From Allomuricauda sp. F6463D (GTDB lineage Bacteria > Bacteroidota > Bacteroidia > Flavobacteriales > Flavobacteriaceae), in contig NZ_JALKAN010000001.1 in the NCBI RefSeq assembly GCF_023015965.1, positions 62,001-126,000 of the forward strand: DNA of 64,000 bases, written 5' to 3'. The notes below the pieces were generated by a model. The model ran no database searches and was not told the origin of the DNA. It saw nothing but the letters and a program-made list of their open reading frames with translations. The translations under genes and the position numbers were made by a program. Positions 21,599-46,766 of this stretch are shown piece after piece. Numbering within the stretch: position 1 is the stretch's first letter; every line of letters starts with the position of its first letter.

Positions 21599-21626
21599 TT
21601 AGATGTTCCATACAGGTTTTGGTTAC
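21599..21626 (-). promoter_or_regulatory. ECF-sigma-type promoter (member a) upstream of the AraC gene
   Basis: On the minus strand TATTGTAACC, 15 bases, CATCTAA. It matches the shared element described for the sigma factor gene at 35.7 kb, including exact spacing. The AraC start is about 135 bases downstream. Confidence 0.6.
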
Positions 21627-21647
21627 AATATTTTAAAGAACCATTGG

Positions 21648-21678
21648 AAAGCCCTTTTTTCAATATAAACGGGCTTTT
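21648..21678 (-). terminator. Possible terminator after the PepSY gene
   Basis: Arms AAAGCCC (21648-21654) and GGGCTTT (21671-21677) with a 16-base loop, about 45 bases after the restored PepSY stop. The trailing T-run is short on both strands, so this is a modest call. Confidence 0.45.
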
Positions 21679-21722
21679 CATTTGAAAATAAGGGAATACA
21701 GTCATGTCCCCCGACCCAAGTC

Positions 21723-22968
21723 CTAAGTTCTAGTTTTAACCTTGCTTTGGACCAGAAATCCTAATAAGATCAAAATGAGGCTCATTCCGAACAAGGGAAA
21801 AACTATGCCTAAAACCGTCATGGCAATTATTGCACCATTGACCGGGCCAATTTTTTTTTGGCAACTTAGGCGTTCCCCATTGCCCGCTCTTTTTTCGTAG
21901 GCTATAGGAAACAAGGGCAGCAATCGCCATAATCGCCACCACCAATGCTATGAAAAGCATCAAGTACCAATTCCATGGACCAAACTGGCCTTGGTGGAAA
22001 GCCATGAGCCACATCCTACCCCGCATCAGCACACCTACATCGGACCATGTCTGTTTCAAAATTAGGTCGCCACTGTATTGATCATAGTGATATTTCACCT
22101 GGCGTCCAAGGTCTTTGTAATACGTGTTGAATATACTGTATGTACTTGATTCATTCTTTGGTAATTCGATGTTGGTCTCCCCCGGAAGATTCAGGCTTAT
22201 TGCAATGTCAACGATATCATCCAAGAGTACTTTGCCACTGATTTTTTCCGATTGCAGACCAATTCCTGACCAAGTAGGGGGATAACCGGTATGGGTCACT
22301 TTCTGGATCCATTTAAAATTATTGCCCACAATATCGGTCCATGGAAATGCTCCGGCCAGGACCAGTAACAACAATCCAGAGATCCAAAATCCAATAATGG
22401 AATGAAGATCTCGGAAAAAAATACGCCGACCTGCTTTTGTCCTGGGAAGGATTAAGGCCAATAATCCTTGTTTGGACGAAGGCCAAAATATATAGATACC
22501 GGTAATGATCAATACAATGAGCCAGCTGGCCACCAATTCAACGATTTTAGTACCAAAACGCCCCATAAGAAGTTCACCGTGGATTTTTCGGACCTTGTAC
22601 ATAGATCCTTCTTGGGTTTTGATCTTACCGGTTACCTTACCCTTATAAGGATCGATGAAGAGGCTGGATTCCCGGGAAAATTTCCCGGATACAAATTCCG
22701 TGGCCCTGTCCTTTTCCAATGGTACTTTCATGACATTGGGACTTTTGGATAGCTCCTTGCATGCCATCTCCCATTGCTGTTGATAGGGTATGGGAATCCC
22801 CGATGCCTCAATCTTCTTGATCGGTTCATATACCTTTTTTTCGTAATCATGGTTAAAAAGATAGATGCCCCCGGTGATGGAAAGCACAAGGATAAAGGGG
22901 AGCGTTATGAGTCCTGCAATAAAATGCCATCTCCAGAGCCATTGGTTCAATAATCTGTTTTTTTTCAT
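21723..22968 (-). CDS. PepSY-domain membrane protein (siderophore reductase-like), frameshifted in an A9 tract
   Basis: A PepSY-associated transmembrane protein, normally about 400 residues, found beside TonB receptors and thought to help ferric-siderophore reduction at the inner membrane. The N-terminus LNQWLWRWHFIAGLITLPFI, the helix LVASWLIVLIITGIYIFW and RDLHSIIGFWISGLLLLVLAG are classic. As written the frame runs to 21736, but from about residue 370 it becomes an unrelated Cys/His/Trp-rich tail. The +1/-1 frame immediately reads KKIGPVNGAIIAM, GIVFPLFGMSLILILLGF, the missing last helix, ending at 21723. The switch is at a run of nine A (minus strand, near 21851-21859); eight A would give the full protein. 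Slippage, phase variation, mutation or a sequencing error could explain it. Confidence 0.82.
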
Positions 22969-23022
22969 GTATCCAAATCTTGGGGTTCCGCCTGGCTACA
23001 CCCTGGTAGCACCCAATCCGTT

Positions 23023-25824: not shown

Positions 25825-25863
25825 GATCGGTCCTATATGATTAGAATAAAGTACATCTTTCAA

Positions 25864-26421: not shown

Positions 26422-26449
26422 TTGGATGTCATAAAACAGTTTGGGTTAC
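26422..26449 (-). promoter_or_regulatory. ECF-sigma-type promoter (member b) upstream of the iron-uptake genes
   Basis: On the minus strand AATTTGTAACC, 15 bases, CATCCAA. Same spacing and elements as the other copies. The first gene I trust downstream (CNGKC protein) starts about 600 bases later, so the link to it is uncertain. Confidence 0.5.
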
Positions 26450-28242: not shown

Positions 28243-28557
28243 TCAATCATCCTTTTCCATTGCTTCCATGGCAATACTGGCATGGGAATAGGCGGCACCT
28301 GCCCGCATTTCAGCGGCCACCCAAATGGCCTCCATAATTTCCTCCTTGCTAGCTCCCTTGCGCAGGGCTAGGGGAGTATGTGCCTTGATGCACCATGGAC
28401 ACTGTGTAACATGTGCCACCGCTACCGCTATGAGCTGCTTTGTCTTTTCATCCAAAACCCCAGCTTTAAAGACCGAGCGACTGAACTTGCGCCAAGCATC
28501 TATCTGTTCTGGAGCGAGGCCGGCTTTTCTCTTTGCCAATTCTTTTTCTGTTTTCAT
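28243..28557 (-). CDS. AhpD-like carboxymuconolactone decarboxylase family protein
   Basis: A 104-residue single-domain protein. The motif HVTQCPWCIKAHT gives C53, C56 and H60, the thiol pair and proton relay used by AhpD-type alkylhydroperoxidases. The C-terminal half EEIMEAIWVAAEMRAGAAYSHA is typical. It sits between OsmC and the Cys-poor paralogue on the minus strand. Peroxide or organic-radical detoxification is the likely role; gamma-carboxymuconolactone decarboxylation is not. Confidence 0.88.
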   Translation of the reverse strand: MKTEKELAKRKAGLAPEQIDAWRKFSRSVFKAGVLDEKTKQLIAVAVAHVTQCPWCIKAHTPLALRKGASKEEIMEAIWVAAEMRAGAAYSHASIAMEAMEKDD

Positions 28558-28587
28558 TACTTTTTACTTTTACAATTAGGGATGGAA

Positions 28588-29004
28588 TTATAGTAATTCT
28601 GCATCCAGGATTATTTCCAAATCCAGGGCTTTACTTACTGGACAGTTATCTTTGGCCTTATGAGCACAATCTAAAAAAGTCTCTTGATCAATGCCTGGAA
28701 TTAGGGCTTTTAGAGTCAAATGTGACTTGGTGAGTTCCAAGGAGTCTACATCCAGTGTGATTTCGTTGGTGACATTCAAGGATTTTGCCGTTACCCCGAC
28801 TTCGCTGAGAAAAAGACTCAGGGCCATGGCAAAACATCCAGCATGGGCAGCGGCAAGCAATTCATCGGGATTAGTGGATTTTCCTTCTCCAAACCGAGAG
28901 TTGAAGCAATATTTATTGTTCTCCAACACCTTGCTTTGTGTTGTGATGGTTCCTTCCCCTTCCATCAAGGAGCCGCTCCAAACGGCATTTGCTTTACGTT
29001 TCAT
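28588..29004 (-). CDS. OsmC-type peroxiredoxin
   Basis: A 138-residue OsmC family protein that reduces organic hydroperoxides with two cysteines. C57 (AAHAGCFAMAL) and C121 (KDNCPVSKAL) are both present, as is the NPDELL motif before the first Cys. The strand-rich N-terminus WSGSLMEGEGTI fits. It is the first gene of a minus-strand run with the two AhpD-like proteins, SDR and DUF488, with 30-base gaps or less, so a peroxide-defence operon is plausible. It is distinct from Ohr by its sequence around the second Cys. Confidence 0.9.
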   Translation of the reverse strand: MKRKANAVWSGSLMEGEGTITTQSKVLENNKYCFNSRFGEGKSTNPDELLAAAHAGCFAMALSLFLSEVGVTAKSLNVTNEITLDVDSLELTKSHLTLKALIPGIDQETFLDCAHKAKDNCPVSKALDLEIILDAELL

Positions 29005-29107
29005 ATTTTTCTGTTTTTATCGATTATTATACTAATGGATTCCTCTGCTGTCCAACGTATATAGTTACATACATCAATCATGATCCTTGTTCAAGAGTTG
29101 GCTAGGA

Positions 29108-29401
29108 TCAAATAAACTGGATGGCTGAATCTATAGCCATTATGACCACCGCCTCAAACTCCCCCAATATGGTGAGCGAATGTTCCTTTTTTGCTGGGAT
29201 GATGTACACACTGCCCATTTCGAGCTTATGTTCGTCATCACACATTTTTAAAAGCGCTTTTCCTTTTTTGACCATAATTACCGCTTCCCCGGTACTATAG
29301 TGATGAGGCATTACGGTACCCGGATACCCTATCACTTCCAAGGCTTTATAGGTCTTGCCTTCGACTATAATATGTACTTGTGGTCTGCTCTTTGTTTCCA
29401 T
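29108..29401 (-). CDS. Small cupin-domain protein
   Basis: About 97 residues forming a single cupin barrel, with GYPGTVMPHHYSTGEAVIMVKKGKA as the first motif region and GSVYIIPAKKEHSLTILGEFEAVVI as the second. Possible metal ligands are the His pair in PHHYS, a Glu in TGEAV, and H in KEHSL. I chose ATG at 29401; the frame extends to a TTG at 29407. Its start overlaps the end of the tryptophan dioxygenase gene by 56 bases, so the two are co-transcribed and probably translationally coupled. Substrate unknown. Confidence 0.82.
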   Translation of the reverse strand: METKSRPQVHIIVEGKTYKALEVIGYPGTVMPHHYSTGEAVIMVKKGKALLKMCDDEHKLEMGSVYIIPAKKEHSLTILGEFEAVVIMAIDSAIQFI

Positions 29402-30314
29402 GATCAATTGTCTTTGGTTCTCCCCATTGTTCTTTTTCTATTTCAGTCCACAGCGCTGGGAAGAATTTGCGCTGTTGGTGGCTTGGGTGCAAATACTTTT
29501 TCCACTTGGAACCTCCGGTAGCAGCTATTTGACCATTTTTTTCCTCCAAATAATGAGCAGCCGTTCTTAAATGTACCATAGGCCATTCCACATTATAGAG
29601 ATAATCGAATTTCTTGAGGGTTTGCACCAGCAAGCTTGACCGGTCCCCCATTTGGCTAATCTTGTCCCCTAGGGTGAGCCCCTGTACTTTTTTGGCCAAA
29701 GTGATGAAATCCTCTAGATATTTTTCCTCAAACCTCTGGAGGGTCAGGGTCTTTTTTCCAGTAGAACGATCATACCCTGCATCTTTCCAATAGATATGGT
29801 CAACATATTCCTCAACCGACGGGTTTTGAGGGAGCCTTTGTCTGCCCTCTTCATTTATAAGATTTTCCAATGGAGTGCACAGGATCTCAATATATCGGAA
29901 TTGGGCGCTCTGAAAACCACTGGCGGGGGTAAGGGTCTTACGGAATTTTTGATATTCCCCAGGGTCCATGCCATCTTTCATGATATCAAAAGAACTGATG
30001 AGCATTTCGGTATACCGTATACACCGTCCAATTTTTACGGTTACTTGGTTCTTATCGATAATATCCCCGTCCACAAGCTGTTCCAATTCATGTCTTATCA
30101 ATTTCAATAAGAGCTCGGTAACCTGATGGTACATGATAAAGATGACTTCATCCTTAAATGGGGTGCGTGGCTTTTGTAAGCTGAGTAGGGTATCCACTTC
30201 GACATAGTCCCAATACGTGATGGGGTCGGCATGTAGGAGTCCTTCCAGATATGTTTCCGGGTTTTCCCCCAATTCTTGGTACTTTTTGATGATTTGATCA
30301 ATAGTATTGGACAT
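29346..30314 (-). CDS. kynA: Tryptophan 2,3-dioxygenase
   Basis: A haem dioxygenase of 322 residues that opens the indole ring of L-tryptophan to N-formylkynurenine. IMYHQVTELLLKL holds the distal His (H63). LTPASGFQSAQFRYIE (about 128-143) is the TDO substrate motif. H248 in WPMVHLRTAAHYL is the likely haem ligand, and ATGGSKWKKYLHP binds the substrate amino group. Its last 18 codons overlap the cupin gene. It lies at the end of a cbb3-oxidase/haemoglobin operon, which is unusual, since no kynureninase or formamidase is nearby. Confidence 0.88.
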   Translation of the reverse strand: MSNTIDQIIKKYQELGENPETYLEGLLHADPITYWDYVEVDTLLSLQKPRTPFKDEVIFIMYHQVTELLLKLIRHELEQLVDGDIIDKNQVTVKIGRCIRYTEMLISSFDIMKDGMDPGEYQKFRKTLTPASGFQSAQFRYIEILCTPLENLINEEGRQRLPQNPSVEEYVDHIYWKDAGYDRSTGKKTLTLQRFEEKYLEDFITLAKKVQGLTLGDKISQMGDRSSLLVQTLKKFDYLYNVEWPMVHLRTAAHYLEEKNGQIAATGGSKWKKYLHPSHQQRKFFPALWTEIEKEQWGEPKTIDHGNKEQTTSTYYSRRQDL

Positions 30315-30316
30315 AT

Positions 30317-30760
30317 TTATTTTTTTAAAAGTTTGATAGCCAATAGGAAAAGACTAATTACTTTGATAAGTTCCATACCTACATAATAAAGGTGCAGATA
30401 TGAGTTTTCGACTTTCTGTCCCTGAAGAAGTAGTTCCACTCGCGAATTTAGGGCCGGCAACAACCAGAGGGTCTGAAGAATCAATAGGGTCAAAACCATG
30501 GGATAAAGCTTGTTCCTAGATAGGGAATAATGATCTTTCCACAGTATAAAGTTTCCAAGTATGACCAATGCAAATACCCATTCCACTTTGTTCAGGGCAC
30601 TGAACACCAGCTGGCCAATACCCAATCCTAAGGGTATCGTAATCCCCGGCGCCTGGAACTTTAGCCATGCTTCCATAAAACTAATGGCCCCGATAAAACC
30701 AATCCAAAGAAAGGTAACGGGCAGGGCAAACGGAAATTTTACAGAAGTCCTCATCTCCAT
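30317..30760 (-). CDS. Four-helix integral membrane protein, function unknown
   Basis: A 147-residue protein with four predicted membrane helices (for example FALPVTFLWIGFIGAISFMEAWL, WVFALVILGNFILW, LYPMVLTLLILQTLWLLPAL and the C-terminal VISLFLLAIKLL). The first loop has FQAPGITIPLGLGIG. It overlaps the haemoglobin gene by ten bases and is two bases from the tryptophan dioxygenase gene, so it belongs to the respiratory operon. I do not recognise a named family. Confidence 0.75.
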   Translation of the reverse strand: MEMRTSVKFPFALPVTFLWIGFIGAISFMEAWLKFQAPGITIPLGLGIGQLVFSALNKVEWVFALVILGNFILWKDHYSLSRNKLYPMVLTLLILQTLWLLPALNSRVELLLQGQKVENSYLHLYYVGMELIKVISLFLLAIKLLKK

Positions 30761-31140
30761 GTCGTTTTATTATTTTTCGGGAAGGCCATAATGGTATGGT
30801 GGAACATTTCGGTCATTCTGTTCACCTGTCTTTTGGTTTCTTTAGTTTTTTCACCTTCAAAGAGCTGGTCCAAGATGCTATGGAACAATGTTAACCAATG
30901 ATCAAAATAGTGTTTTCCATTTGGAAGGTCTACGTGTGGTAAAAACGGGTTCTCAAAATATAATGGATCATCCAACAATACTGTATGCCAGAAATTGTAC
31001 ATTTTGTTCAAATGTACGGGCCACTCCTCCTGAGGGGCTTCGTTGAAAATGCCCCCCCAAAAATCATTGTTATGAACCTTACCGTAAAAGGTGTCAACAA
31101 GAAGTTCAATATCATCTGCGGGCTGTAAGTCACGTTTCAT
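30751..31140 (-). CDS. Group III truncated haemoglobin
   Basis: A 129-residue globin. It fits group III by length and by WPVHLNKMYNFWHTVLL (B/E region with aromatic residues) and the proximal-helix segment KHYFDHWLTLFH, in which H77 is the likely proximal haem ligand. These proteins bind O2 or NO and are linked to nitrosative stress. Overlap with genes on both sides shows it is part of the cbb3 operon, where it could protect the oxidase from NO or supply O2. Confidence 0.88.
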   Translation of the reverse strand: MKRDLQPADDIELLVDTFYGKVHNNDFWGGIFNEAPQEEWPVHLNKMYNFWHTVLLDDPLYFENPFLPHVDLPNGKHYFDHWLTLFHSILDQLFEGEKTKETKRQVNRMTEMFHHTIMAFPKNNKTTWR

Positions 31141-31562
31141 TAGAAAAAAGATGTATAGAGTTCAGAGTTCCAGTACATGATCGCATAAAAAAGCGCAAAA
31201 CCAATAAAAAGGATCAATAGTGCCCATACCCATGCCGGTATGGCCTTTGGGGTTTCAGACCCGCGGATAACAAATGAATCGTTTGTTTCACTACCGTAGG
31301 CATTTATGGTAATGGGAACTTGGGTATCGACCACTTCGTTGTCTTTAAGGCCCACAACGGCTATCTCCGGGCCATTGCGCACCTCAAATGGTATGGTCTT
31401 TATCCCTTCCACGTTATTGGATGAACGGGCCACAATGCGCAAACTGTGCTTTCCATCGGGTATCTTGGTAGTATCCAAAACAAATTTCACCGGAGGGGAG
31501 AATTCAGCGAAAGGTCTGGTTTCTTGATCCAAATAGACTTTAATGATCCTATTGTCCTCCAT
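31140..31562 (-). CDS. Ig-like domain membrane protein of the cbb3 operon
   Basis: A 140-residue protein with a beta-sandwich-like first 110 residues (VKFVLDTTKIPDGKHSLRIVARSS, TQVPITINAYGSET) and one C-terminal helix (IPAWVWALLILFIGFALFYAIMYW). No signal peptide is visible, so insertion is by the C-terminal anchor. It overlaps the next upstream gene by 14 bases and shares one base with the haemoglobin gene. Presence in the oxidase operon suggests an accessory or assembly subunit. No family is recognised. Confidence 0.7.
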   Translation of the reverse strand: MEDNRIIKVYLDQETRPFAEFSPPVKFVLDTTKIPDGKHSLRIVARSSNNVEGIKTIPFEVRNGPEIAVVGLKDNEVVDTQVPITINAYGSETNDSFVIRGSETPKAIPAWVWALLILFIGFALFYAIMYWNSELYTSFF

Positions 31563-31836
31563 GCTCTCTTAGATTTTGATCCCATACGATATGCTTGATA
31601 TGTTCAGGGTTGTTCTCCCTGGGTCTTACCAAGAACTTAATGCTAAAAAATAAGGTGATAATGACCAGGATTATGGCGGACCACGTTATGATATAATCCA
31701 TATTGCCTGTTGGGCCTTGCCCGTGTGTAATGTTTTCAAATCCTTTGGGCTGGTTTTTTTTACAAAGGTCACAGGCTATGACAAACTGTTGACCAAGCCC
31801 AAAAAGTATACAATATATCGGAATCAATCGTTTCAT
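31549..31836 (-). CDS. Small CxxC membrane protein of the cbb3 operon
   Basis: A 95-residue protein: signal-like N-terminus (IPIYCILFGLGQQFVIA), then CDLCKKNQPKGF with a CxxC, and one membrane helix (WSAIILVIITLFFSIKFLV) before a charged tail. The CxxC would face the periplasm, where it could handle copper, haem or a disulfide during oxidase assembly. It lies four bases downstream of the cytochrome subunit gene. It could stand in for small CcoQ/CcoH-like subunits, but I see no sequence homology to them. Confidence 0.7.
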   Translation of the reverse strand: MKRLIPIYCILFGLGQQFVIACDLCKKNQPKGFENITHGQGPTGNMDYIITWSAIILVIITLFFSIKFLVRPRENNPEHIKHIVWDQNLREHGGQ

Positions 31837-31839
31837 TTC

Positions 31840-32853
31840 CTAGGGGTTTAGATCTTGGGTTATATATTCTCGTATTTTGCGAACCTCTTCTTCCGTAACG
31901 GCCGAACCGGTATTGCCCCAACTGATCCGTTCATGGGTTGCAATGGCCGCAATCTCCGCATCGGAAAGTTGATCGGCAAAGGCTTGCATTGTCGCAAATT
32001 CGGAACGGGCATCATAACCTTGCAAGATAATCTTGATCATCAGTTCGGGGTTCTTATCGTTGACGATATCGCTTCCTTCCAAAGGGGGAAAGGCACCGGC
32101 CACTCCCTTGCCATTGTCTTGGTGGCATACGGCACAGGTCTGTAGGTATAATTGTTCCCCGTTAAGGGAGGAGCTATTGTCGATGTCCTTTGAACCGGCC
32201 ATTTGCTTTGGTTCTATGGCGGGAATGAATTTTTCCTCCCGGCCATCGGGAAGGGTGGTTTGTTGTAATGATTTAAGATAGGCGACCAATTGCAAAGCTT
32301 CCTTTTTGGCTACTATGGTCTTACCAGGGGACGGTGCAAAGGCATCTGGTAGATTGACGACCTTGTCGTCTTCTTTTATGGAAGTAGTGTCAACGATGTC
32401 GAACAACCAAGGGTAGGAGGGCATGATCGAAGGGGCAACAACCGAACGTGGGTTGTATAAATGGAGCAGGTGCCAATCAATACTGGGCTGTCGCTTTCCG
32501 ATATTGGTCAGGTCGGGTCCGGTCCGCTCGCTGCCCAAAAGGGAAGGGGATTGCCTCCAAATTCCCATGCGTTTCTTGCTATAAAAATAATCGGACGGTA
32601 TGGAAGGACGGTCTCCCCATATATTATCCATTTCTATATTGCGAACCTGTTGGGTATGACAGGCGACACACCCTTCTCGAATGTAGATGTTTAGGCCTTC
32701 TCTTTCATTCTGCGCCATCTCCGGTTGCTGGGGCAATGGTTGTACGTTCTGCATTTGATAGGCAGGAAACACTGCCACAATGAAGCTGAGGGTGACAAAC
32801 CCGACCAGGGCCGTTATCACCAGTACTTTATGATTTTTATGAAAATCGAACAT
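31840..32853 (-). CDS. cbb3-type oxidase dihaem cytochrome subunit (CcoO fused to a second cytochrome c domain)
   Basis: A 337-residue membrane-anchored cytochrome. One N-terminal helix (VLVITALVGFVTLSFIVAVF) leads into a CcoO domain with haem motif CVACH (C62-H66), the CcoO hallmarks NIWGDRPSIPSDYFY and SLLGSERTGPDLTNIG, and the axial Met in IMPSYPW. A second cytochrome c domain has CAVCH (C240-H244) with QDNGKGVAGAFPPLEG. This merges CcoO with part of what CcoP normally provides; no separate CcoP is present. It lies ten bases after the catalytic subunit gene. Confidence 0.88.
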   Translation of the reverse strand: MFDFHKNHKVLVITALVGFVTLSFIVAVFPAYQMQNVQPLPQQPEMAQNEREGLNIYIREGCVACHTQQVRNIEMDNIWGDRPSIPSDYFYSKKRMGIWRQSPSLLGSERTGPDLTNIGKRQPSIDWHLLHLYNPRSVVAPSIMPSYPWLFDIVDTTSIKEDDKVVNLPDAFAPSPGKTIVAKKEALQLVAYLKSLQQTTLPDGREEKFIPAIEPKQMAGSKDIDNSSSLNGEQLYLQTCAVCHQDNGKGVAGAFPPLEGSDIVNDKNPELMIKIILQGYDARSEFATMQAFADQLSDAEIAAIATHERISWGNTGSAVTEEEVRKIREYITQDLNP

Positions 32854-32863
32854 AATTTTAAGC

Positions 32864-36390: not shown

Positions 36391-36396
36391 AAAAAT

Positions 36397-36534: not shown

Positions 36535-37200
36535 ATGTTTCATAATGTAGGTATTGTAAAAAAAGAGTGGTTGATCCACAATGTGATCCGTTTCAGATTG
36601 GAACGACCAGGAGGTTTTGAACATTCCATTGGCCAGGCTGTGGAAGTTGAATTGGATATTGATGGATCGATTAAAAAAACAGCGCCTTTTACATTGACCA
36701 ATCTAACTGATTCAAAATATTTGGAACTCATCATCAAGATCTACCCCAAAAAAATGGGATTTACCTATGCGATCTCCAAGAAGAATGAAGGGGATGTACT
36801 ATGTATAAGCGACCCATGGGATTCGTACCAGTACCATGGTAAGGGAACCTTTATTGCTGCAGGTTCGGGCATTACTCCTTTCATCCCCATGTTAGAACAA
36901 TTAAAAAAGGACGGCGGTACCATTGGACATAAACTGATTTATGCCAACAAGTGTGAGAAGGACATCATTTTAAAGGATGAACTGGAGGGTTTGTTGGGAC
37001 AGCATTTTTACAATATCCTCAGTGAACAAAGCATCATAGGATATTCCCAGGGAAGAATAGACAGAAAGTACTTGAGTATAAGGATAGTTGATATGGAGCA
37101 GTATTTCTATGTATGCGGACCAGAAAGTTTTTCGGATAAAATCAAAGATTATTTAATAACCCTTGGCGTACACCAGGATAAAATTCAAATAGGATATTAA
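36535..37200 (+). CDS. Ferredoxin/flavodoxin-reductase-type flavoprotein
   Basis: A 221-residue soluble oxidoreductase with an FAD-binding barrel (NVIRFRLERPGGFEHSIGQAVEVEL, then KTAPFTLTN as the flavin motif) and a nicotinamide-binding half (GTFIAAGSGITPFIPMLEQL, YVCGPESFSDKI). The C-terminus IQIGY lacks the usual aromatic end seen in plant-type FNR. It lies eight bases before folE. A paralogue at 45978-46733 shares the same motifs and promoter type. The electron partner is unknown; a pterin or flavodoxin partner is possible. Confidence 0.85.
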   Translation: MFHNVGIVKKEWLIHNVIRFRLERPGGFEHSIGQAVEVELDIDGSIKKTAPFTLTNLTDSKYLELIIKIYPKKMGFTYAISKKNEGDVLCISDPWDSYQYHGKGTFIAAGSGITPFIPMLEQLKKDGGTIGHKLIYANKCEKDIILKDELEGLLGQHFYNILSEQSIIGYSQGRIDRKYLSIRIVDMEQYFYVCGPESFSDKIKDYLITLGVHQDKIQIGY

Positions 37201-37207: not shown

Positions 37208-37867
37208 ATGGAAATAAGTAATACGAAGCCATGTGAGGTAAAGGTAAAGGCGGACCAAGGGGATTGTAATGAATTTGATTGTCAGCAATGTAGAATAAGT
37301 GAGAAATCATTAAAAATAGCCCATCATTTTGGAAAGATCATGGAAGTATTGGGACTTGATTTAAATGATCCCAGTCTTAAGGGAACCCCGAAAAGAGTTG
37401 CAAAGATGTACCTCGAGGAATTGTTTGTGGGATTGGACGCATCCCAATTTCCGGACGTATCATTTTTTGATAACAATTACGGATTTGATGAAATGGTCAT
37501 TGTAAATGACATAACCCTTTATTCCTATTGTGAACATCATTTTGTACCCTTTATAGGAAAGGTTAATGTGGCTTATTTTCCCAATAAAAAGGTTATCGGT
37601 CTATCCAAAATAAACAGAGTGGTGGAGTTTATTAGTAAAAAACCTCAAGTACAGGAAAAGCTTACTGTTGAAATTGCCCAAACGCTAGCGGAATTATTGG
37701 AAACCAAGGATGTGGCTGTTTATGTGCAGGCCGATCATCTTTGTGTGGCATCACGAGGTATCAAAGATTATAATAGTTATACAAAAACAGGAACTTATTT
37801 GGGCAAGTTCAAAAGTAAAAAGGTTAGAAATGAATTCATGTGCTCTTTTACCCAAAATAATTTGTAA
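37208..37867 (+). CDS. folE: GTP cyclohydrolase I
   Basis: A 219-residue enzyme that makes 7,8-dihydroneopterin triphosphate from GTP for folate or other pterins. The zinc ligands are C108 and H111 (SYCEHHFVPF) and C179 (HLCVASRG). The substrate loop KINRVVEFISKKPQVQEKLT and the C-terminal KTGTYLGKFK are usual. An extra Cys cluster at the N-terminus (C9, C20, C25, C28) is not part of the typical fold. Placement behind an ECF promoter with a flavin reductase suggests a stress-induced second FolE, not the housekeeping copy; in other bacteria such copies accompany photolyases. Confidence 0.92.
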   Translation: MEISNTKPCEVKVKADQGDCNEFDCQQCRISEKSLKIAHHFGKIMEVLGLDLNDPSLKGTPKRVAKMYLEELFVGLDASQFPDVSFFDNNYGFDEMVIVNDITLYSYCEHHFVPFIGKVNVAYFPNKKVIGLSKINRVVEFISKKPQVQEKLTVEIAQTLAELLETKDVAVYVQADHLCVASRGIKDYNSYTKTGTYLGKFKSKKVRNEFMCSFTQNNL

Positions 37868-37891
37868 CCGTATTTGATATGATGCATCAAA
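37864..37891 (+). promoter_or_regulatory. ECF-sigma-type promoter (member f) of the DUF4142-cupredoxin unit
   Basis: TAATTTGTAACC, 15 bases, CATCAAA. The first element overlaps the folE stop codon, and the DUF4142 start is 28 bases after the second element. Confidence 0.65.
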
Positions 37892-37918: not shown

Positions 37919-38440
37919 ATGAAAAATATTTTAAGTCTTTTGATGATTGCAACAATAAGTATTTGTTCCTACGGGCAGGGGACACAATTGGAAGATACTG
38001 AAGTGGCATCCGTGGCTGTTGTTGCGAACCAAATTGATATTGATTATGCCCAAATTGCTCTAAAAAAATCAGATAACAAGGAAATACGTGAATTTGCCAA
38101 TCGAATGGTCAATGATCATAAGGCGGTCATTGGTCAAGCTGCAGCATTGGTGAAAAAATTGGGAGTCGACCCCAAGGACAATGTCGTTAGTCAATCCTTG
38201 TTAAAAGATGCGCAAGAAACCATAAAGAAACTTAAACGAACATCCAAACGGCAATTTGATATGGCATATATCAATAATGAAGTGACCTATCATAAAGCAG
38301 TGATTAACGCAATCAATAGTGTACTAATTCCAGAGACTGAAAATGATGAGTTAAAACAATTACTAAGCGATGTGGTTCCTGCCTTGGAAGCGCATTTGGG
38401 ACATGCAGAAATGGTGCAGAAAAATATTAAATCCCACTAA
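37919..38440 (+). CDS. DUF4142 (ferritin-like) exported protein
   Basis: A 173-residue protein with signal peptide MKNILSLLMIATISICSYGQ, then a helical DUF4142 domain: DIDYAQIALKKSDNKEIREFANRMVNDHKAVI, LKRTSKRQFDMAYINNEVTYHKAVINAINSVLI and ALEAHLGHAEMVQKN in short stretches. DUF4142 resembles a four-helix ferritin-like bundle; the His and Glu positions here fit but no metal binding is shown. Its stop codon (TAA 38438-38440) overlaps the next gene's start by one base. It is under promoter f. Confidence 0.85.
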   Translation: MKNILSLLMIATISICSYGQGTQLEDTEVASVAVVANQIDIDYAQIALKKSDNKEIREFANRMVNDHKAVIGQAAALVKKLGVDPKDNVVSQSLLKDAQETIKKLKRTSKRQFDMAYINNEVTYHKAVINAINSVLIPETENDELKQLLSDVVPALEAHLGHAEMVQKNIKSH

Positions 38441-38790
38441 TGAAACCATTCGTTGCAAAAATAACGGTATCCGCAATTGTACTCTTTACATTATTTATGG
38501 AGATATGGGCGTACAACAATTATTCTGGAAATACCGAGCCTCCTACTAAACATACCGTAAAGATATTTAGGATGAAGTTCATACCAGATCATCTTACCGT
38601 AAAGAAAGGGGACACTGTTGAATGGATAAACAAAGATTTTTATCAACATGATGTGACTGATGAAAAGAATAAGGAATGGACATCGTCACCTTTTAATCAA
38701 AATGAGACTTGGAGCAAAGTTATCACTAAAGACGAACAATATTTCTGCAATCTGCACAAGACAATGAAAGGAGCTATTGATATAAAGTAA
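38440..38790 (+). CDS. Membrane-anchored or exported cupredoxin
   Basis: A 116-residue plastocyanin/azurin-type copper protein. The N-terminal hydrophobic segment (FVAKITVSAIVLFTLFMEIWAY) is a signal or anchor. Type-1 copper ligands are H70 (FYQHDVT), C103, H106 and M109 (YFCNLHKTMKG). It overlaps DUF4142 by one base, so they are co-expressed. It could pass electrons to the dihaem cytochrome encoded next. Confidence 0.88.
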   Translation: MKPFVAKITVSAIVLFTLFMEIWAYNNYSGNTEPPTKHTVKIFRMKFIPDHLTVKKGDTVEWINKDFYQHDVTDEKNKEWTSSPFNQNETWSKVITKDEQYFCNLHKTMKGAIDIK

Positions 38791-38879: not shown

Positions 38880-40232
38880 ATGAAGAAATACTTAATTTAT
38901 AACTTACCAATACTGGTTGCGATACTTATTTGGGTATCCAGCTGTACAAAGACAGAAACCATTACAGAAACGATTACTGAAACAGTTACAGATACCATTA
39001 TTGAGACCACGATTGATACCTTGCATTTAGACCCTGTATTGGTAGCGGAAGGAAAAGATGTGTTTAGGTACGATACATTTGGGGATGAAGCATTTTGGAG
39101 CGATGTGCTTCACTTGGACAAGGCCATCCTTGGAGCGGACAATGGAGGGTATGGTGACGGTGTAAGCCCCGTAACTGCTTTGGCGGTTGGGCTTAAGGTC
39201 GATGCCGAAGCATTGCCGGTTGAAGTTGTTGATCTAATACAGGCAGGGGAAATCGATTTGAACGATCCAGCAACTACTGTGGAACTTTTACGATTGAATT
39301 CAGTAGTTGGAATTAAAGGTAATTTCGATGATGAAGGTGATTTGTCATCCATTGGGATTACCTGTGCACTCTGTCATTCGACTGTGGACAACTCATTTAG
39401 TGATGGTATTGGGAAACGATTGGACGGTCACCCCAATAGGGACTTGAATGTAGGGGTCATTGTCTCATTGACCGATAATGCACAATTTTTAGCAGATCTC
39501 TTACATGTTGATGTTCCAACGGTCAATACGGTCTTAAATGGTTGGGGTCCAGGAAAATTCAATGCTGGATTGTTTATTGATGGGGTTGCAACCCGACCTG
39601 ATGGATCCATTGCCGCCAATTTACTGCCTGCAGCTTATGGTCTTCAAGGCGTTAACCTGGCGACTTACACTGGTTGGGGGGATATGGTATACTGGAATGC
39701 CTTTGTCGCAAATTTGGAAATGCACGGGCAGGGTAACTTTACAGATGAGAGACTTAACGATCCCATTAAATTTCCGATAGCTTCTGAGAATAATTTTGGC
39801 AATGTGGTCAACTCGCCAGACCTCATAACAGGTAAATTGCCGGCCTTACAGGCCTATCAGTTGTCATTGGATGCCCCAACACCACCGGAGGGCAGTTTTG
39901 ACCAAGAGGCGGCAATGAGGGGTGAGGACCTGTTTAATGGGGTAGCGCAATGTGCTACTTGTCACATTGCACCCATATTTACCGATGCAGGGTTTAATTT
40001 GCATACTGCGGAAGAAATAGGAATCGATGATTTTGAGGCCAATAGGTCACCGACAGGTATGTATAGAACGACCCCATTAAGAGGTCTGTTCGCACGAATG
40101 AAAGGAGGTTTTTATCATGATGGAAGATTTGCATCCTTAGCTGATGTTATCGAACATTATGATGGGCATTTGGATCTACAGCTCTCACAGGATGATAAAA
40201 ACGACCTAGAAGAATATTTAAAGTCTATTTAA
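38880..40232 (+). CDS. Dihaem cytochrome c lipoprotein with Thr-rich linker
   Basis: A 450-residue exported protein, lipobox VSSC (C22), followed by a Thr/Glu/Ile-rich linker made of near-repeats such as TETIT, TETVT and TDTII up to residue 47. Two haem sites are CALCH (C162-H166) and CATCH (C358-H362). The C-terminal part (YRTTPLRGLFARMKGGFYHDGRFASLADVIEHY) resembles bacterial dihaem cytochrome c peroxidase/MauG-like proteins. It sits 90 bases behind the cupredoxin. Peroxidase activity is possible but the domain spacing is longer than in typical CcpA. Confidence 0.85.
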   Translation: MKKYLIYNLPILVAILIWVSSCTKTETITETITETVTDTIIETTIDTLHLDPVLVAEGKDVFRYDTFGDEAFWSDVLHLDKAILGADNGGYGDGVSPVTALAVGLKVDAEALPVEVVDLIQAGEIDLNDPATTVELLRLNSVVGIKGNFDDEGDLSSIGITCALCHSTVDNSFSDGIGKRLDGHPNRDLNVGVIVSLTDNAQFLADLLHVDVPTVNTVLNGWGPGKFNAGLFIDGVATRPDGSIAANLLPAAYGLQGVNLATYTGWGDMVYWNAFVANLEMHGQGNFTDERLNDPIKFPIASENNFGNVVNSPDLITGKLPALQAYQLSLDAPTPPEGSFDQEAAMRGEDLFNGVAQCATCHIAPIFTDAGFNLHTAEEIGIDDFEANRSPTGMYRTTPLRGLFARMKGGFYHDGRFASLADVIEHYDGHLDLQLSQDDKNDLEEYLKSI

Positions 40233-41359: not shown

Positions 41360-44300
41360 ATGATATACCGTAGACTTATAGAAGTTATAGGTTCAACACG
41401 CCTTATGGCCATACTCTTTATTGCATTTGCGCTCAGCATGGCCATTGGAACCTTTATTGAGAATTCATTTTCAATTGACGTGGCTAGGATTTATATATAC
41501 GATACCTGGTGGTTCGAGGGGATGATGGTATTGTTCGTGTTCAATTTTTTATTCAATATTCGCAAATATTCTTTGAATAGGAGGTCTAAGTGGCCTACGC
41601 TTGTGATTCATTTGGCATTTGTCATTATCATAATGGGTGCCTTCATAACACGATATTACGGTTTTACCGGTTTAATGTCCATTCGAGAGGGAAGTTCCTC
41701 CAATAAAGTTATTTCAGATGAAACATATCTGCAGCTTCGAATGGACGTGAAGGAGGATGGAATAAAGCATACACAGCAAATAGAAAAACAGGTATTGTTG
41801 TCGGAAGCAACCGCCGGCTTCAACCCATTTGCCATACAAACAGAGTTTAATGGAAAAAATATTGGCATAGCATATGACAACTTTATAGAAAATGCCCAAT
41901 GGAGTTTTTCTCCGAGTTATGGGGATGCTCAACATATCAAGATAGTGGAGACCCATGATGGGGAGCGGCATGACCATTATATCAAGGAAGGGGAAATACT
42001 GCATTGTGGACATAATCGTTATACGTTCAACAACCCACAATCGGGTTCCTATAATTTTTCAATGGTGGCTAACAAATTATGGTTGGATGCACCATTGCCA
42101 GGTAAGGTACTGCAGATGTTATCTGGCAATGAAACACAAATAACTGCGGGATATAGGGAACCTATAAAGTTCAAAGCACTTTATGATTTTGGTGAACTAA
42201 AGTTCGTTGTGCCCGAACCAGCCAAAAGGGGAAAGTTGTCACTACTTACCGATGGAACCGATATTAAGCAATCCAGTGGACCCCATGCCCTGGTTCTCAC
42301 ACTGACCATTGATGGTAGGTCCCGGCGAGTGATCATATTTGGAAAGAGAGGAAAAGTCGGTAATCCTACCCAACTCATTTTAGATGGAATTTCATATTCA
42401 TTTTCTTACGGAAGTAAGACCCACCTGCTCCCTTTTAAAATAAAACTACACAAGTTTATTGCAAAGAAATACCCTGGTACGACAAATAGTTATGCCGCAT
42501 TTGAAAGCAAGGTAAGGGTGCTGGATGACTCTATGGATATGGATGCGGAAATTTACATGAACCATGTTTTGGATTATAAGGGATATCGGTTTTTTCAGTC
42601 ATCTTTCCATCCCGATGAAAGAGGTACCATCTTATCGGTGAATCATGATAACTGGGGTACACAGGTTACATATATAGGGTATTTTTTATTGTATTTGGGT
42701 CTTTTGGCCATATTGTTCAGTAAAAATTCAAGGTTTGGGTATATCATCAAACAGTTGAAAAAACTCAATTCCAGTTCAAAATCGGCTATACTGGTTGTAT
42801 TACTGCTATCTGCGTTCCATGGATTTGGCCAGCAAGAAATAGATCCCATAGACCCCATGGTCTTGAATAAATTGGACTCCATTGTGACTTATTATAAAGT
42901 TCCCGATGCACATGCACAAAAATTTGCCCAATTGGTCATACAGGATGTCAATGGAAGGATGAAACCCATGGACACCTACGCCTCTGAGCTACTGCGAAAA
43001 ATTAGCAAGGATGACCGGTATAAGGATTTAAATGCCAACCAAGCAGTTTTGTCAATGCTACAATTTCCGGATATTTGGATCAATATGCCCTTGGTCTACA
43101 TAAAAAGTGGAAATGATAGTCTTCGTGTTATCTTGGAAACTCCTAAAGGTATGAAACGGGTCCCTCTGGCAAAGTTCTTTGATAAGAAAGGAAACTATAA
43201 ACTTCAAGAACAAGTGGCCGTAGCGTACAAGGCCATTGTTCCCAACCAATTTGAAAAAGACTTTATCGAAGTTGACCGAAGGGTAAACCTGTTGTATAAT
43301 GCCCTCAATGGGAATGATTTAAGGATATTCCCTGTCCCAAATGATAAAAACAACACTTGGATTTCAACTTTGCATTTATCGAAACATGATTTGCAGAGAA
43401 AGGATTCCTTGTTTGTTGCCAACATATTTCCGCTTTATTTTAATACTTTTTCCGAGGAAATAGGACATGGAAAAGGAGATTTCGGTAAGTCTTATGGTTT
43501 GTTGGGGCAAATAGAAAAATACCAAAACAAGTTTGGCCATGATATCATTCCTGAACGTTCAAAAATTAATTGGGAGATTCGCTATAACAAATATGATATA
43601 TTCAAAAATTTGTTTTCGTGGTACCTGGTACTTGGTATGCTATTGTTGACTATGTCTGTCATTGGGCTCTTTAAGAGAAATAATTCCTTTGAGTTGTCAA
43701 TGTGGATTCCACGGGTGGGGATATATTTGTGTTTTGCCTTGCATACTTTGGGCTTGTTGGCAAGATGGTATGTTTCAGGACATGCCCCCTGGAGCGATGC
43801 CTATGAGTCCATAATCTATATCAGTTGGGCCACAATGCTCTTTGGTATCATACTCGGAAGAAAATTTGATCTTGCATTGGCTGCCACTGCATTTGTAAAT
43901 GCCATGATATTAATGGTTGCCCATTGGAATTGGCTGGACCCGGCAATAGCTAACCTACAACCTGTGCTCAATTCGTATTGGTTGATGATTCATGTAGCCA
44001 TCATAGTTGCCAGTTACGGCCCTTTTACGTTGGGAATGGTTTTAAGTGTTTTGGCCTTGCTGTTGATGTCTTTGGTCCAAAAGACCAACCAGGTCTATAT
44101 GCGGAAGGTCATTAAAAAACTGGTGTTGCTCACGGAAATGTCATTGACCATAGGTTTGGTCATGCTGACCATTGGTAATTTTTTGGGAGGACAATGGGCC
44201 AACGAAAGTTGGGGAAGGTACTGGGCTTGGGATCCAAAAGAAACCTGGGCATTGATCAGTATTTTGGTCTATGCCTTTATTATACATATGCGATTGGTTC

Positions 44301-44518
44301 CCGGACTAAGGGGAAAATGGATATTCTCATTGATGGGAGTATTAGGTTTTTATGCCATTTTAATGACATATTTTGGGGTCAATTTCTATTTATCGGGGCT
44401 ACATTCCTATGCACAAGGTGACAATATAGTAACGCCCAGCTTTTTATATTACTCCATAGCCGTCATTGTTATATTGGCAAGTGTGTCCCTATACAAACAA
44501 ACGCGATATCGTATATAG
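41360..44518 (+). CDS. Fused ResB-CcsA system II cytochrome c biogenesis protein
   Basis: A 1052-residue membrane protein joining both halves of the haem ligation machine. The first part is ResB/CcsB-like (RLMAILFIAFALSMAIGTFIE, then a long periplasmic section with several strands). A second signal-like helix near residue 480 (AILVVLLLSAFHGFG) leads into a periplasmic stretch. The last 280 residues are CcsA, with the WWD haem-binding motif in GRYWAWDPKETWALI and conserved His in several helices. It attaches haem to the CxxCH proteins at 38.9 and 31.8 kb. Fusion is usual in Bacteroidota. Confidence 0.92.
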   Translation: MIYRRLIEVIGSTRLMAILFIAFALSMAIGTFIENSFSIDVARIYIYDTWWFEGMMVLFVFNFLFNIRKYSLNRRSKWPTLVIHLAFVIIIMGAFITRYYGFTGLMSIREGSSSNKVISDETYLQLRMDVKEDGIKHTQQIEKQVLLSEATAGFNPFAIQTEFNGKNIGIAYDNFIENAQWSFSPSYGDAQHIKIVETHDGERHDHYIKEGEILHCGHNRYTFNNPQSGSYNFSMVANKLWLDAPLPGKVLQMLSGNETQITAGYREPIKFKALYDFGELKFVVPEPAKRGKLSLLTDGTDIKQSSGPHALVLTLTIDGRSRRVIIFGKRGKVGNPTQLILDGISYSFSYGSKTHLLPFKIKLHKFIAKKYPGTTNSYAAFESKVRVLDDSMDMDAEIYMNHVLDYKGYRFFQSSFHPDERGTILSVNHDNWGTQVTYIGYFLLYLGLLAILFSKNSRFGYIIKQLKKLNSSSKSAILVVLLLSAFHGFGQQEIDPIDPMVLNKLDSIVTYYKVPDAHAQKFAQLVIQDVNGRMKPMDTYASELLRKISKDDRYKDLNANQAVLSMLQFPDIWINMPLVYIKSGNDSLRVILETPKGMKRVPLAKFFDKKGNYKLQEQVAVAYKAIVPNQFEKDFIEVDRRVNLLYNALNGNDLRIFPVPNDKNNTWISTLHLSKHDLQRKDSLFVANIFPLYFNTFSEEIGHGKGDFGKSYGLLGQIEKYQNKFGHDIIPERSKINWEIRYNKYDIFKNLFSWYLVLGMLLLTMSVIGLFKRNNSFELSMWIPRVGIYLCFALHTLGLLARWYVSGHAPWSDAYESIIYISWATMLFGIILGRKFDLALAATAFVNAMILMVAHWNWLDPAIANLQPVLNSYWLMIHVAIIVASYGPFTLGMVLSVLALLLMSLVQKTNQVYMRKVIKKLVLLTEMSLTIGLVMLTIGNFLGGQWANESWGRYWAWDPKETWALISILVYAFIIHMRLVPGLRGKWIFSLMGVLGFYAILMTYFGVNFYLSGLHSYAQGDNIVTPSFLYYSIAVIVILASVSLYKQTRYRI

Positions 44519-45976
44519 CTATGAACGTTTGGAATACGTATCCAAACTGTTTGCAAGTAGATCTAAAAGGAGGTCTATATGATTTTTATGTGTTCTGAAT
44601 GATAATAAGGCGGCACGAAGGGTGAATTTATCGTCAATCATGGTGGACGAAAGAAAGATGCGGCCATCATCGAGAAGAGTTTTCAAAATGAATTTGTTGA
44701 TTCTGTTTATTTCGCCCAATTCATGAATGTTGGCCTCATATCTAAAAGCCACTACGGTGAGTTCAGGTTCACAGACAACATGAAAATTTAGTTTCAATAA
44801 AGCGGTATATAGATAGCTGGTCAAAACCAATTTTTCGTCCAAGTAATTTGCAAATGCTTGAGGACCATAAAGTTTTAAGGGTAACCACATTCGTAGACCC
44901 CTAAAATGCTTGCTTAGCTCAGGGGACATATCGGCAGGTGAGATTCTGTCCATTTTGTAGCTGTCTTGCATATAACTGGCATCAAATTTAAAAGTGTTTG
45001 TCAGGTGTTTTAATTTCTTTACCAATACAATACCTGATCCATAAGGTAGAAAAAGTCCCTTATGTGGATCTAAAATTATGGAATCTGCGTGCTGTAGTCC
45101 TTTAAGTTTGTCCCTTCCTGTTTTAGTCAACGCAAAAAAACCGCCATATGCCGCATCCACATGGAACCAGATGGAATGTTTCTTACATATTGCACTTACT
45201 TGTTCAATTGGATCTATAGCGCCCACATCTGTAGACCCCGCATTGGCGATTACCAAAAAAGGATTGAGGCCGGCCTTGAGATCAACTTCAATTTGTTGCT
45301 CTAAATGGGCAACCGAGAGCTTAAAAGCATTGTCAAGAGGGATCTTATGTATTGCATAGCTATCCATACCTATAATTTGTATGGCCTTGAAGATACTGTG
45401 GTGGGCTTGTGGCGAGCAATAAATTATACTTTTGCTCATTTCATTGAAAAGTGTTTTACCATGGTGTCTGGCGCATGTAAGTGCTATGAGGTTGGCGATA
45501 CTCCCCCCTGAGGTTAAATTGCCTCCAAACCCTTGGTCATATCCAATCAATTCTCCTGCCCATTTTATCAAGGCATTTTCCATTTTGACCGCCCCTGGTG
45601 AAGCATAGAACACACCGGCATATCTGTTGGTTAGTGCAGCAAGGAAATCTCCCAGTGCAGAACTGTAAAGACCACCTCCGGGTATATACCCCAGATGGCC
45701 GCCCGAGGCGGGATTTAACCCTGTTTTCAACACATTTCTATCGAAGGTGTCCAATAACTCCTCCAAGCTCTGCGTATGTGCATCAATTTCGAACTCATGC
45801 AATTGGTCACCATGAACATCGGGATGGCCATGGTAAACCTTATCCTGTTCCAAATTATGGATAAATTTATGTCCAAAATCCAAAACAATTTTTTCCATGA
45901 ACTCACGTTGTTCTTTGGTTTCTTCCAAAATAAGATCTTGTGGGTAGTTGCTGTCCTTGGTGGTATTGTTGTTCAT
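44519..45976 (-). CDS. PLP-dependent group II decarboxylase
   Basis: About 485 residues of the glutamate/aromatic-amino-acid decarboxylase type. The Schiff-base Lys is K306 in DPHKGLF; D274 in FHVDAAYGG and H192/H193 hold the pyridine ring. I chose ATG at 45976, one base after the stop of the flavin reductase gene; the frame extends upstream to 46057 but inside that gene. The N-terminal GHLGYIPGGGLYSSALGDFLA is typical. The substrate may be a tryptophan- or glutamate-like amino acid; I cannot choose. It is cotranscribed with the reductase under promoter g. Confidence 0.88.
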   Translation of the reverse strand: MNNNTTKDSNYPQDLILEETKEQREFMEKIVLDFGHKFIHNLEQDKVYHGHPDVHGDQLHEFEIDAHTQSLEELLDTFDRNVLKTGLNPASGGHLGYIPGGGLYSSALGDFLAALTNRYAGVFYASPGAVKMENALIKWAGELIGYDQGFGGNLTSGGSIANLIALTCARHHGKTLFNEMSKSIIYCSPQAHHSIFKAIQIIGMDSYAIHKIPLDNAFKLSVAHLEQQIEVDLKAGLNPFLVIANAGSTDVGAIDPIEQVSAICKKHSIWFHVDAAYGGFFALTKTGRDKLKGLQHADSIILDPHKGLFLPYGSGIVLVKKLKHLTNTFKFDASYMQDSYKMDRISPADMSPELSKHFRGLRMWLPLKLYGPQAFANYLDEKLVLTSYLYTALLKLNFHVVCEPELTVVAFRYEANIHELGEINRINKFILKTLLDDGRIFLSSTMIDDKFTLRAALLSFRTHKNHIDLLLDLLANSLDTYSKRS

Positions 45977-45977
45977 A

Positions 45978-46733
45978 CTATACAGATATTGCAATATTTG
46001 AAATAACGGGCTCTGATTGTCCAAACTTGTACCCAGTTTGGATTCGATATCTTTCAATTCCCATGGAAACTAAATAGTTTTTAATGTCATATTCAAAGGA
46101 TTTGGGGCCGCAGACATAAAAGTACTGCTCATTTTTCGTAATCTTTCGTTTGAGAAAACTGCAATTGATTCGCTGAGATAAAGGTTCCTTGTGCTTCGAC
46201 CTACTGATATACTTTAAAAAATTATTACCAAAAGTTGCTTTAAGTTTTTTTTCAAACAAAATGTTCTCTTGGTGGTCACAGGCATAGACCAAGGTGTGTT
46301 CATACTTGAACCCCTCAGTTTTTTCGTTTATTTTCTCTATAATCGGCACAAATGGGATTATTCCGGTTCCCGCAGCAAAAAAAATACCCTGTCCCCTATA
46401 CTTAAAGGTGTCCCATGGTTGGCTCAACTGGATAATAGCTCCAGGCCCTAGTAATGACAATTGATAGGTCAAACTATGTTTATGGGGCTGGACCTTGATG
46501 ATAAATTCTAAACAATGATTACCTTCGGAACTTATGATGGTGAAAGGAGCAACCTCGAGTTCAAAGCCTGGTAGGTCAATACTTATATCCATAGCTTGTC
46601 CTGCGATAAATTTTAACCCAAAAGGTTTTTGAATAAAAAGATGAATTATATTTTGATTGATATTCTCTTTTTTTATAAGTCGTGATTGGTAAGGAAAAAC
46701 GAAACCTTTTATTGAATTGTTAGTATGTTGCAT
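45978..46733 (-). CDS. Flavodoxin-reductase-type flavoprotein, paralogue of 36535-37200
   Basis: A 251-residue FAD/NAD(P)H oxidoreductase. Shared motifs with the 36.5-kb paralogue are FAAGTGIIPFVPIIEKI, SQPWDTFKYRGQG and YVCGPKSF. It has about 18 extra N-terminal residues. Its ATG lies only six bases after the second promoter element, so the transcript is probably leaderless. Together with the decarboxylase it forms a two-gene unit. Partner unknown. Confidence 0.83.
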   Translation of the reverse strand: MQHTNNSIKGFVFPYQSRLIKKENINQNIIHLFIQKPFGLKFIAGQAMDISIDLPGFELEVAPFTIISSEGNHCLEFIIKVQPHKHSLTYQLSLLGPGAIIQLSQPWDTFKYRGQGIFFAAGTGIIPFVPIIEKINEKTEGFKYEHTLVYACDHQENILFEKKLKATFGNNFLKYISRSKHKEPLSQRINCSFLKRKITKNEQYFYVCGPKSFEYDIKNYLVSMGIERYRIQTGYKFGQSEPVISNIAISV

Positions 46734-46738
46734 ACTAT

Positions 46739-46766
46739 TTGGATTAAAAATACCCTATCAGGTTAC
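46739..46766 (-). promoter_or_regulatory. ECF-sigma-type promoter (member g) of the flavin reductase-decarboxylase unit
   Basis: On the minus strand CGTTTTGTAACC, 15 bases, AATCCAA. The start codon is six bases downstream. Confidence 0.6.

Follow-up and report, generated by a model that had tools for sequence, protein, structure and literature searches.

Seven promoter-like sites in a redox gene cluster

A 64-kb window from the genome of the marine flavobacterium Allomuricauda sp. F6463D (contig NZ_JALKAN010000001.1, positions 62,001 to 126,000) carries a gene for an extracytoplasmic function (ECF) sigma factor in a cluster of putative redox genes, and seven copies of one promoter-like element are distributed through this region. 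An initial annotation of the window had attributed these sites to a single sigma regulon, and all seven were confirmed at their coordinates and on their strands. The sites share the core element TGTAAC(C/T), 16 bases and ATC(T/C/A)AA. Coordinates refer to the whole 64-kb window, and L and G numbers denote the loci and genomes that were compared.

The sigma gene (35653–36333, reverse strand) encodes a protein of 226 amino acids with a GTG start, Pfam sigma regions 2 and 4, and a C-terminal tail with the residues FEFGNHKCDR. Its own promoter, GTAACC-N16-ATCTAA (36363–36390, reverse strand), is back-to-back with a promoter (36397–36424, forward strand) that precedes flavin reductase 1 (FR1; 36535–37200, forward strand), a flavin adenine dinucleotide/nicotinamide adenine dinucleotide (FAD/NAD) reductase by its Pfam NAD_binding_1 and FAD_binding_6 matches. 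The next gene, folE (37208–37867, forward strand), encodes GTP cyclohydrolase I (PF01227, 8e-61). The annotation had placed folE in the regulon; it lacks a site of its own and would belong there as the second gene behind FR1. Downstream of the sigma gene, a further site (35579–35606, reverse strand) precedes a gene for a small hydrophobic protein of 122 residues (35185–35553, reverse strand), which we call DoxX/MauE-like, as it matches the Pfam MauE and DoxX families only under their cut-offs. These three promoters were recognized by pattern match.

A fourth site (37864–37891, forward strand) precedes genes for a DUF4142 protein (37919–38440, forward strand; PF13628, 1e-35) and a plastocyanin/amicyanin-like cupredoxin (38440–38790, forward strand), which matches PF00127 above cut-off and the amicyanin model TIGR02657 under cut-off (1e-6). 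Equivalent site–gene pairs occur in six other loci (L044, L046, L047, L048, L049 and L105). A gene for a cytochrome c peroxidase/MauG-like protein follows (38880–40232, forward strand; TIGR03791, 3e-11, and Pfam CCP_MauG, both under cut-off). It is perhaps part of the DUF4142–cupredoxin operon, and its homologs in L050, L109 and L234 have a site of their own.

Two more sites lie farther from the sigma gene. One (46739–46766, reverse strand; equivalent pairs in L105, L225, L227, L230, L231 and L233) precedes a second FAD/NAD reductase, FR2 (45978–46733, reverse strand; Pfam scan), and a pyridoxal phosphate (PLP)-dependent decarboxylase (44519–46057, reverse strand; PF00282, 4e-60) that overlaps FR2 as called. 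The FR2 start codon is doubtful because the called ATG is just 5 bases from the −10 element. The other (21599–21626, reverse strand; equivalent pairs in L104 and L232) precedes an AraC-family regulator (20529–21464, reverse strand; HTH_18, 1.7e-19).

Thus, six of the seven sites lie upstream of genes, as initially claimed for all of them. The seventh (26422–26449, reverse strand), recognized by pattern match, has no convincing target. Its nearest downstream ORF (open reading frame), 109 bases away, encodes 150 amino acids with no Pfam match, and the site has no counterpart among the six sites of genome G005. An iron uptake target had been suggested here, which is unsupported, as the TonB and PepSY genes begin much further on. 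Between the −10 element and the start codon there are 25 bases for the DoxX-like gene, 27 for DUF4142 and 29 for the sigma gene, close to the 24–28 given at first.

Frequency of the element in the genome

The pattern GTAACC-N16-ATCNAA occurs seven times in the window, whereas 100 dinucleotide shuffles of the window yield it 0.02 times on average and once at most. A chance origin of the seven sites is excluded. Across the 3.7-Mb genome there are 12 matches, seven in the cluster and five outside, compared with four for a reversed-pattern control. The annotation had proposed comparing genome-wide sites upstream of genes with those inside genes, and by this comparison the five matches outside the cluster are not promoter-like. 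Four of them lie fully within ORFs of at least 100 amino acids; the fifth overlaps no ORF, and no same-strand ORF follows it within the 5 kb read. Five of the cluster sites overlap no ORF of this size, one reaches into the final 4 bases of folE, and another overlaps an ORF only in an over-long version of the sigma gene that starts with TTG.

The stricter pattern TGTAACY-N16-ATCNAA has seven matches in the genome, every one in the cluster, and its control has none. When as many as three mismatches to TTTGTAACC-N15-CATCTAA are allowed, the genome holds 51 matches versus 82 for the control. The seven sites have 0–2 mismatches, two other places have 2 and the remaining 42 have 3; neither of the two other places has a same-strand gene just downstream among the ORFs listed. 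A genome-wide regulon in this genome was rejected, with no supported site beyond the cluster.

The sigma factor and its C-terminal tail

The sigma factor matches NCBIfam NF008888 (PRK11922) at 215.8 bits, above the curated cut-off of 204, over positions 12–228 of 231. Its translation start is probably GTG 36333, because the alignment of relatives begins there and the alternative TTG 36372 falls inside the sigma gene's own −10 element. The initial observation that one site precedes an ECF sigma gene therefore stands, with the start of that gene amended.

In an alignment of 19 sequences that range from Flavobacteria to an Ignavibacteriae record, the tail residues F, G, C and D are invariant. Close relatives have the pattern FG-x3-CD, of which F-x4-C is left in the wider family. 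Neighbouring proteins were scanned with Pfam and NCBIfam, and no anti-sigma family was recognized among them, although the DoxX-like protein might have such a role. Within region 4, a helix reading N(V/T)K(V/I)R occurs with TGTAAC promoters, and TVRTR, TVKTR or TARTR occurs with GGGAAC promoters (see below).

Co-occurrence of the promoter with the sigma gene

A contig scan over 84,980 species gave 31 loci, of which 21 are clear orthologs (L043–L063; 45–80% identity). Together with five same-genus loci and the copy in the Allomuricauda sp. F6463D genome itself (L013), these make 27 orthologous loci, and TGTAAC-N17-ATC precedes the sigma gene in 26 of them. For the phylum as a whole, a search with NF008888 in 395 genomes gave 13 matches above cut-off, and 30 loci were used. 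Eleven of the 17 relatives scored as tail-bearing have the TGTAAC promoter, compared with none of the 47 ECF loci scored as tail-less (13 from the phylum set and 34 others). The tail pattern missed visible tails in L126, L129 and L152; the first two of these sit among the 13 phylum loci counted as tail-less and hence among the 47, whereas L152 is outside the 47. No site was scored for the sigma gene of L126, but its DoxX-like gene is preceded by TGTAACC. The promoter is also present at a remote relative (L117), where a PLP decarboxylase homolog follows the sigma gene and a DoxX-like gene and folE lie opposite.

These patterns indicate that the initial rationale, an AAC-containing −35 element as is general for ECF promoters, was too loose; it is the TGTAAC box combined with the −10 element and the spacing that tracks the sigma group. 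The assignment to one sigma regulon is upheld by this conservation and by equivalent target families elsewhere, with the qualifications that the regulon is local in this genome and that one suggested target, at 26422, is unsupported.

The loci and stretches read around sigma genes total 413,659 bases and hold 84 sites, versus 0 for the reversed pattern. These 84 and the seven of the window form a list of 91 sites, in which L123 duplicates the window locus and L121 duplicates L050. By script, 86 of the 91 were assigned homologs of named window genes; one of these sites (L119:1849) sits within the sigma ORF. The five unassigned sites are 26422 and one apiece in L046, L052, L116 and L119. The second A of ATCNAA, which the search did not demand, is A in all 91 sites. 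Direct observation thus extends to the sites themselves, to how they are conserved and occur together with the sigma gene, and to the targets they have in common.

In the divergent arrangement of the window (36385–36402), the two −35 boxes form an inverted repeat, GGTTACA-N4-TGTAACC, and are only 4 bases apart. The gap is 4–8 bases in 30 of the 31 divergent pairs listed, most commonly 6, with some loci entered twice, and two polymerases may not fit on such a pair simultaneously. This narrow gap is what could be expected if TGTAAC were no −35 element but a half-site for a dimeric transcription factor, with the GGTTACA-N-TGTAACC pairs as its palindromic operators. Nonetheless, we consider this very improbable: the single sites before the DoxX-like gene, DUF4142, FR2 and the AraC gene have no inverted partner and still keep ATCNAA at a fixed distance, the element tracks a sigma gene, and a relative of this sigma factor, RpoE8, has a promoter of like form at a mapped transcription start. 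A pair of sigma-dependent promoters is the preferred reading.

Sites and targets in other genomes

Among genomes of the same genus, the six with a close sigma ortholog contain 27 sites (control 7), of which 22 are no farther than about 15 kb from the sigma gene; the 30 without a close ortholog contain 24 sites versus 57 for the control. Another ten genomes, found by way of named records, contain 64 sites versus 10 for the control. Twelve stretches were read from six of these ten. In ten stretches from five genomes (L224–L233), matching operons carry sites, some of them next to sigma paralogs. In an Aquimarina genome (L234 and L235), the two sites are on other contigs, one ahead of a MauG-like cytochrome gene and one ahead of a group of genes that includes YceI. 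The families behind sites in other genomes are DoxX/MauE-like, DUF4142–cupredoxin, MauG-like cytochrome c, flavin reductase–folE, flavin reductase–PLP decarboxylase and AraC.

Some genomes encode two or three sigma paralogs (L224, L226, L227, L228, L229 and L230), several of which lie behind a TGTAAC promoter and next to a DoxX-like gene. Possible remnants were noticed in two genomes in which no close sigma ortholog was found: a DoxX-like fragment in G010 (L192), and FR2 with a site in G027 (L106), whose assembly is 88% complete.

The DoxX-like gene is the most constant partner of the sigma gene; protein clustering places it at 21 and BLAST at 22 of 26 orthologous loci. A full-length copy occurs in six of 59 genomes, exactly those that have a close sigma ortholog, and in nine of the ten further genomes; G010 has a fragment and G037 a weak match. 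Against the DoxX family (PF07681), the window protein scores 15.6 bits, below the gathering threshold of 23.6, and the best of 15 members reaches an E value of 7e-6. In four same-genus genomes, a small gene behind the DoxX-like gene encodes a lipoprotein-like product that contains several histidines (L107:7005–7388, L108, L109 and L110); the one copy scanned matches no Pfam family.

A largely hydrophobic protein that is this constant, is encoded behind a matching promoter and stands at a locus where no other anti-sigma candidate was recognized might itself be the anti-sigma factor or sensor, tethering the sigma factor at the membrane with the tail as a mere docking piece. We regard such a role as unlikely. 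Its 122 residues leave little for a soluble part, and no DoxX-like homolog was detected by BLAST in ten plasmid loci that carry relatives of the sigma factor. Moreover, in Aequorivita, Cellulophaga and Marixanthomonas it is DUF4142 that lies opposite the closest sigma ortholog, while the DoxX-like gene is kilobases off beside paralogs or on other contigs. In the published accounts of Caulobacter SigF (PMC3511200) and Haemophilus RpoE2 (PMC7907618), as far as excerpted, DoxX-family proteins are targets and the anti-sigma factors are other proteins.

Relation to RpoE8 and group ECF29

RpoE8 of Sinorhizobium meliloti (SMb20592, group ECF29) passes the NF008888 model at 323.5 bits, has 35% identity with the window sigma factor and has a similar tail. 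As excerpted from the published study, the rpoE8 promoter GGGAAC/GCATCCAA sits at a mapped transcription start (PMC6180224). The −10 element GCATCCAA and its spacing correspond to those of the window sites, in which ATC(T/C/A)AA, preceded by C, T or A, stands at an equal distance from AAC. DUF4142 and cupredoxin genes adjoin rpoE8, for which no anti-sigma factor is known. In S. meliloti S35m (L155), we found the printed rpoE8 promoter sequence, with DUF4142 and cupredoxin homologs downstream. In contrast to TGTAAC, which is present at seven of the seven window sites, the −35 element of RpoE8 is GGGAAC. Also unlike the window sigma factor, RpoE8 has no DoxX-like partner that we could find at its locus, and only two promoters are predicted for it in the excerpted study (PMC6180224).

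Relatives are also encoded on plasmids. Ten loci were read from 237 records, nine of them proteobacterial and one from a planctomycete, and DUF4142, cupredoxin, folE, flavin reductase or cytochrome c genes are near eight of the ten (not L146 and L149). A strict GGGAAC promoter with matching −10 element and spacing was found at three (L148, L154 and L155), and near-GGGAAC versions are visible by eye at L147 and L152; none was read in the other five.

Because the −10 element, spacing and partners are common to the two systems and the −35 element differs, we call the window sigma factor only ECF29-like and do not file it as ECF29. Its relatives occur in several bacterial phyla, and their control and sensing are poorly known. 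In the text available from a 2018 study, no candidate anti-sigma factor was identified for RpoE8, the authors knew of no detailed study of any ECF29 factor, and the control of RpoE8 was called a mystery (PMC6180224). A review, as excerpted, files ECF29 under regulatory extensions, among the ‘Others’ (PMC8999054). The window system is of a known but little-understood kind, and the present work gives it conserved targets and a family placement. The Bacteroidota branch supplies what was missing for ECF29, namely target operons with predicted promoters that are conserved between genera, which make ECF29 function and the apparent anti-sigma-free sensing directly testable. Within one family it also provides two natural −35 specificities, TGTAAC and GGGAAC, for which region 4 holds candidate residues.

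The following comparisons rest on excerpts of the cited reports. Caulobacter SigF also uses a −35 GTAACC with 16-base spacing and has a DoxX-family gene in its regulon (PMC3511200), and S. meliloti RpoE7 of group ECF16, which by its DUF692/DUF2063 targets looks SigF-type in our reading, has −35 TGTAAC (PMC6180224). This type differs in its −10 CGAA, its six-helix DUF1109 regulator NrsF and its DUF692/DUF2063/DUF2282 targets. In the window the −10 is ATCNAA rather than CGAA, and a DUF1109 anti-sigma factor is absent among the scanned neighbour proteins of the sigma factor. Since SigF combines GTAACC-N16-CGAA with a DoxX-family target, the −35 alone would be insufficient to identify the window factor, which is recognized by its −10 element and its partners.

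Haemophilus RpoE2 and Neisseria SigE (PMC7907618, PMC2893595) likewise have a DoxX-family gene in an ECF regulon, and the Neisseria −10 CGTCTAA is similar. They are unlike the window system in that a small anti-sigma factor is encoded next to the sigma gene and msrAB is the main target, and the Neisseria −35 and spacing differ. Myxococcus CorE (ECF238, formerly ECF44; PMC8999054) is an anti-sigma-free ECF factor whose C-terminal extension sets its activity. That extension is a cysteine-rich domain with a CXC linker, whereas the window sigma factor has a short tail with a single invariant Cys-Asp.

Two further candidates were set aside. The ECF motif SM6 of Flavobacterium psychrophilum, as excerpted, is a different promoter, with CGT in its −10 (PMC9723704). 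A light regulon of the LitR/LitS type, considered on account of folE, is unsupported: Pfam scans of 18 window proteins, and inspection by eye of the rest, showed neither a photolyase nor a MerR regulator. For this promoter or regulon in Bacteroidota, we found no description among the listed matches of the open-licence literature, as judged from titles and the starts of abstracts.

A proposed self-activating sigma factor with a possible on-board switch

Sequence comparison makes it very probable that the seven sites are promoters of the ECF sigma factor encoded at 35653–36333. This factor, beside which no anti-sigma gene was recognized, would activate its own gene and run a local envelope redox/copper module, and its tail may be the switch. 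Positive autoregulation is suggested because a site stands upstream of the sigma gene, whose transcription by its own product would create positive feedback. The sigma factor would also directly transcribe the genes for the DoxX/MauE-like protein, flavin reductase 1 with folE, DUF4142 with the cupredoxin, and perhaps the MauG-like cytochrome c, as well as those for the second flavin reductase with the PLP decarboxylase and for the AraC regulator. An on-board switch formed by the tail seems the most likely mode of control because no anti-sigma gene was recognized nearby, the tail is conserved, and abundance of RpoE8 alone revealed no targets. With Cys-Asp at its core, the C-terminal tail would let the protein act as a one-component sensor that responds to a redox or copper signal in the envelope.

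Several observations weigh against this interpretation. One ortholog (L062) and six of the 17 tail-bearing phylum relatives lack the TGTAAC promoter, and several of these also have NVKVR helices, so that the pairing of helix and −35 element is not universal. In G009, G021 and G031, five of the 12 sites are away from the sigma gene, as expected by chance, and one of the seven window sites (26422) lacks a supported target. For the sigma factor, AlphaFold gave a poor model (predicted local distance difference test (pLDDT) 67, predicted template modelling (pTM) score 0.35) that does not place the tail. Finally, 126-fold overexpression of RpoE8 in S. meliloti led to no targets, according to the excerpted report (PMC6180224).

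The predicted targets point to periplasmic copper/heme redox chemistry, and copper, nitric oxide or low oxygen, and oxidants are candidate signals. A signal of nitric oxide or low oxygen, instead of copper or general oxidation, is conceivable though not favoured. Genes for a cbb3 oxidase (by eye) and a globin (Pfam Bac_globin, slightly under cut-off) adjoin the regulon, globin homologs lie beside FR2 in G005 and G455, the flavin reductases match a flavohemoprotein model (far under cut-off), NnrS is close to a Methylocystis relative, and rpoE8 expression is up in nitrogen-fixing nodules in the published text as excerpted. The oxidase and globin genes of the window, however, are free of sites; the genes that bear sites are those for the cupredoxin, DUF4142, reductase and DoxX-like protein.

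A more specific proposal, in which the sigma factor would be self-activating and anti-sigma-free, is tentative. The FG-x3-CD tail might itself sense envelope copper, heme or redox state, and the conserved module might mature or feed an undescribed periplasmic redox cofactor system. The module would then comprise the DoxX/MauE-like protein, the MauG-like cytochrome c, the amicyanin-like cupredoxin, DUF4142, folE, the flavin reductases and the PLP decarboxylase, joined in some genera by YceI, DUF5777 and weakly heme-binding-like proteins.

Neighbouring genes

A gene for cytochrome c assembly of the fused ResB–CcsA type lies inside the cluster (41360–44518), and its homologs are in-cluster in other genomes too. 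Adjoining the regulon, at 28243–34666, are site-free genes for OsmC-like and AhpD-like proteins, tryptophan 2,3-dioxygenase, the globin and the cbb3 oxidase, named mostly by eye. A second ECF sigma gene (48642–49262) lacks the motif and belongs to a separate system, beside which apparent FecR-type and SusC-type genes (by eye) occupy 49363–54120.

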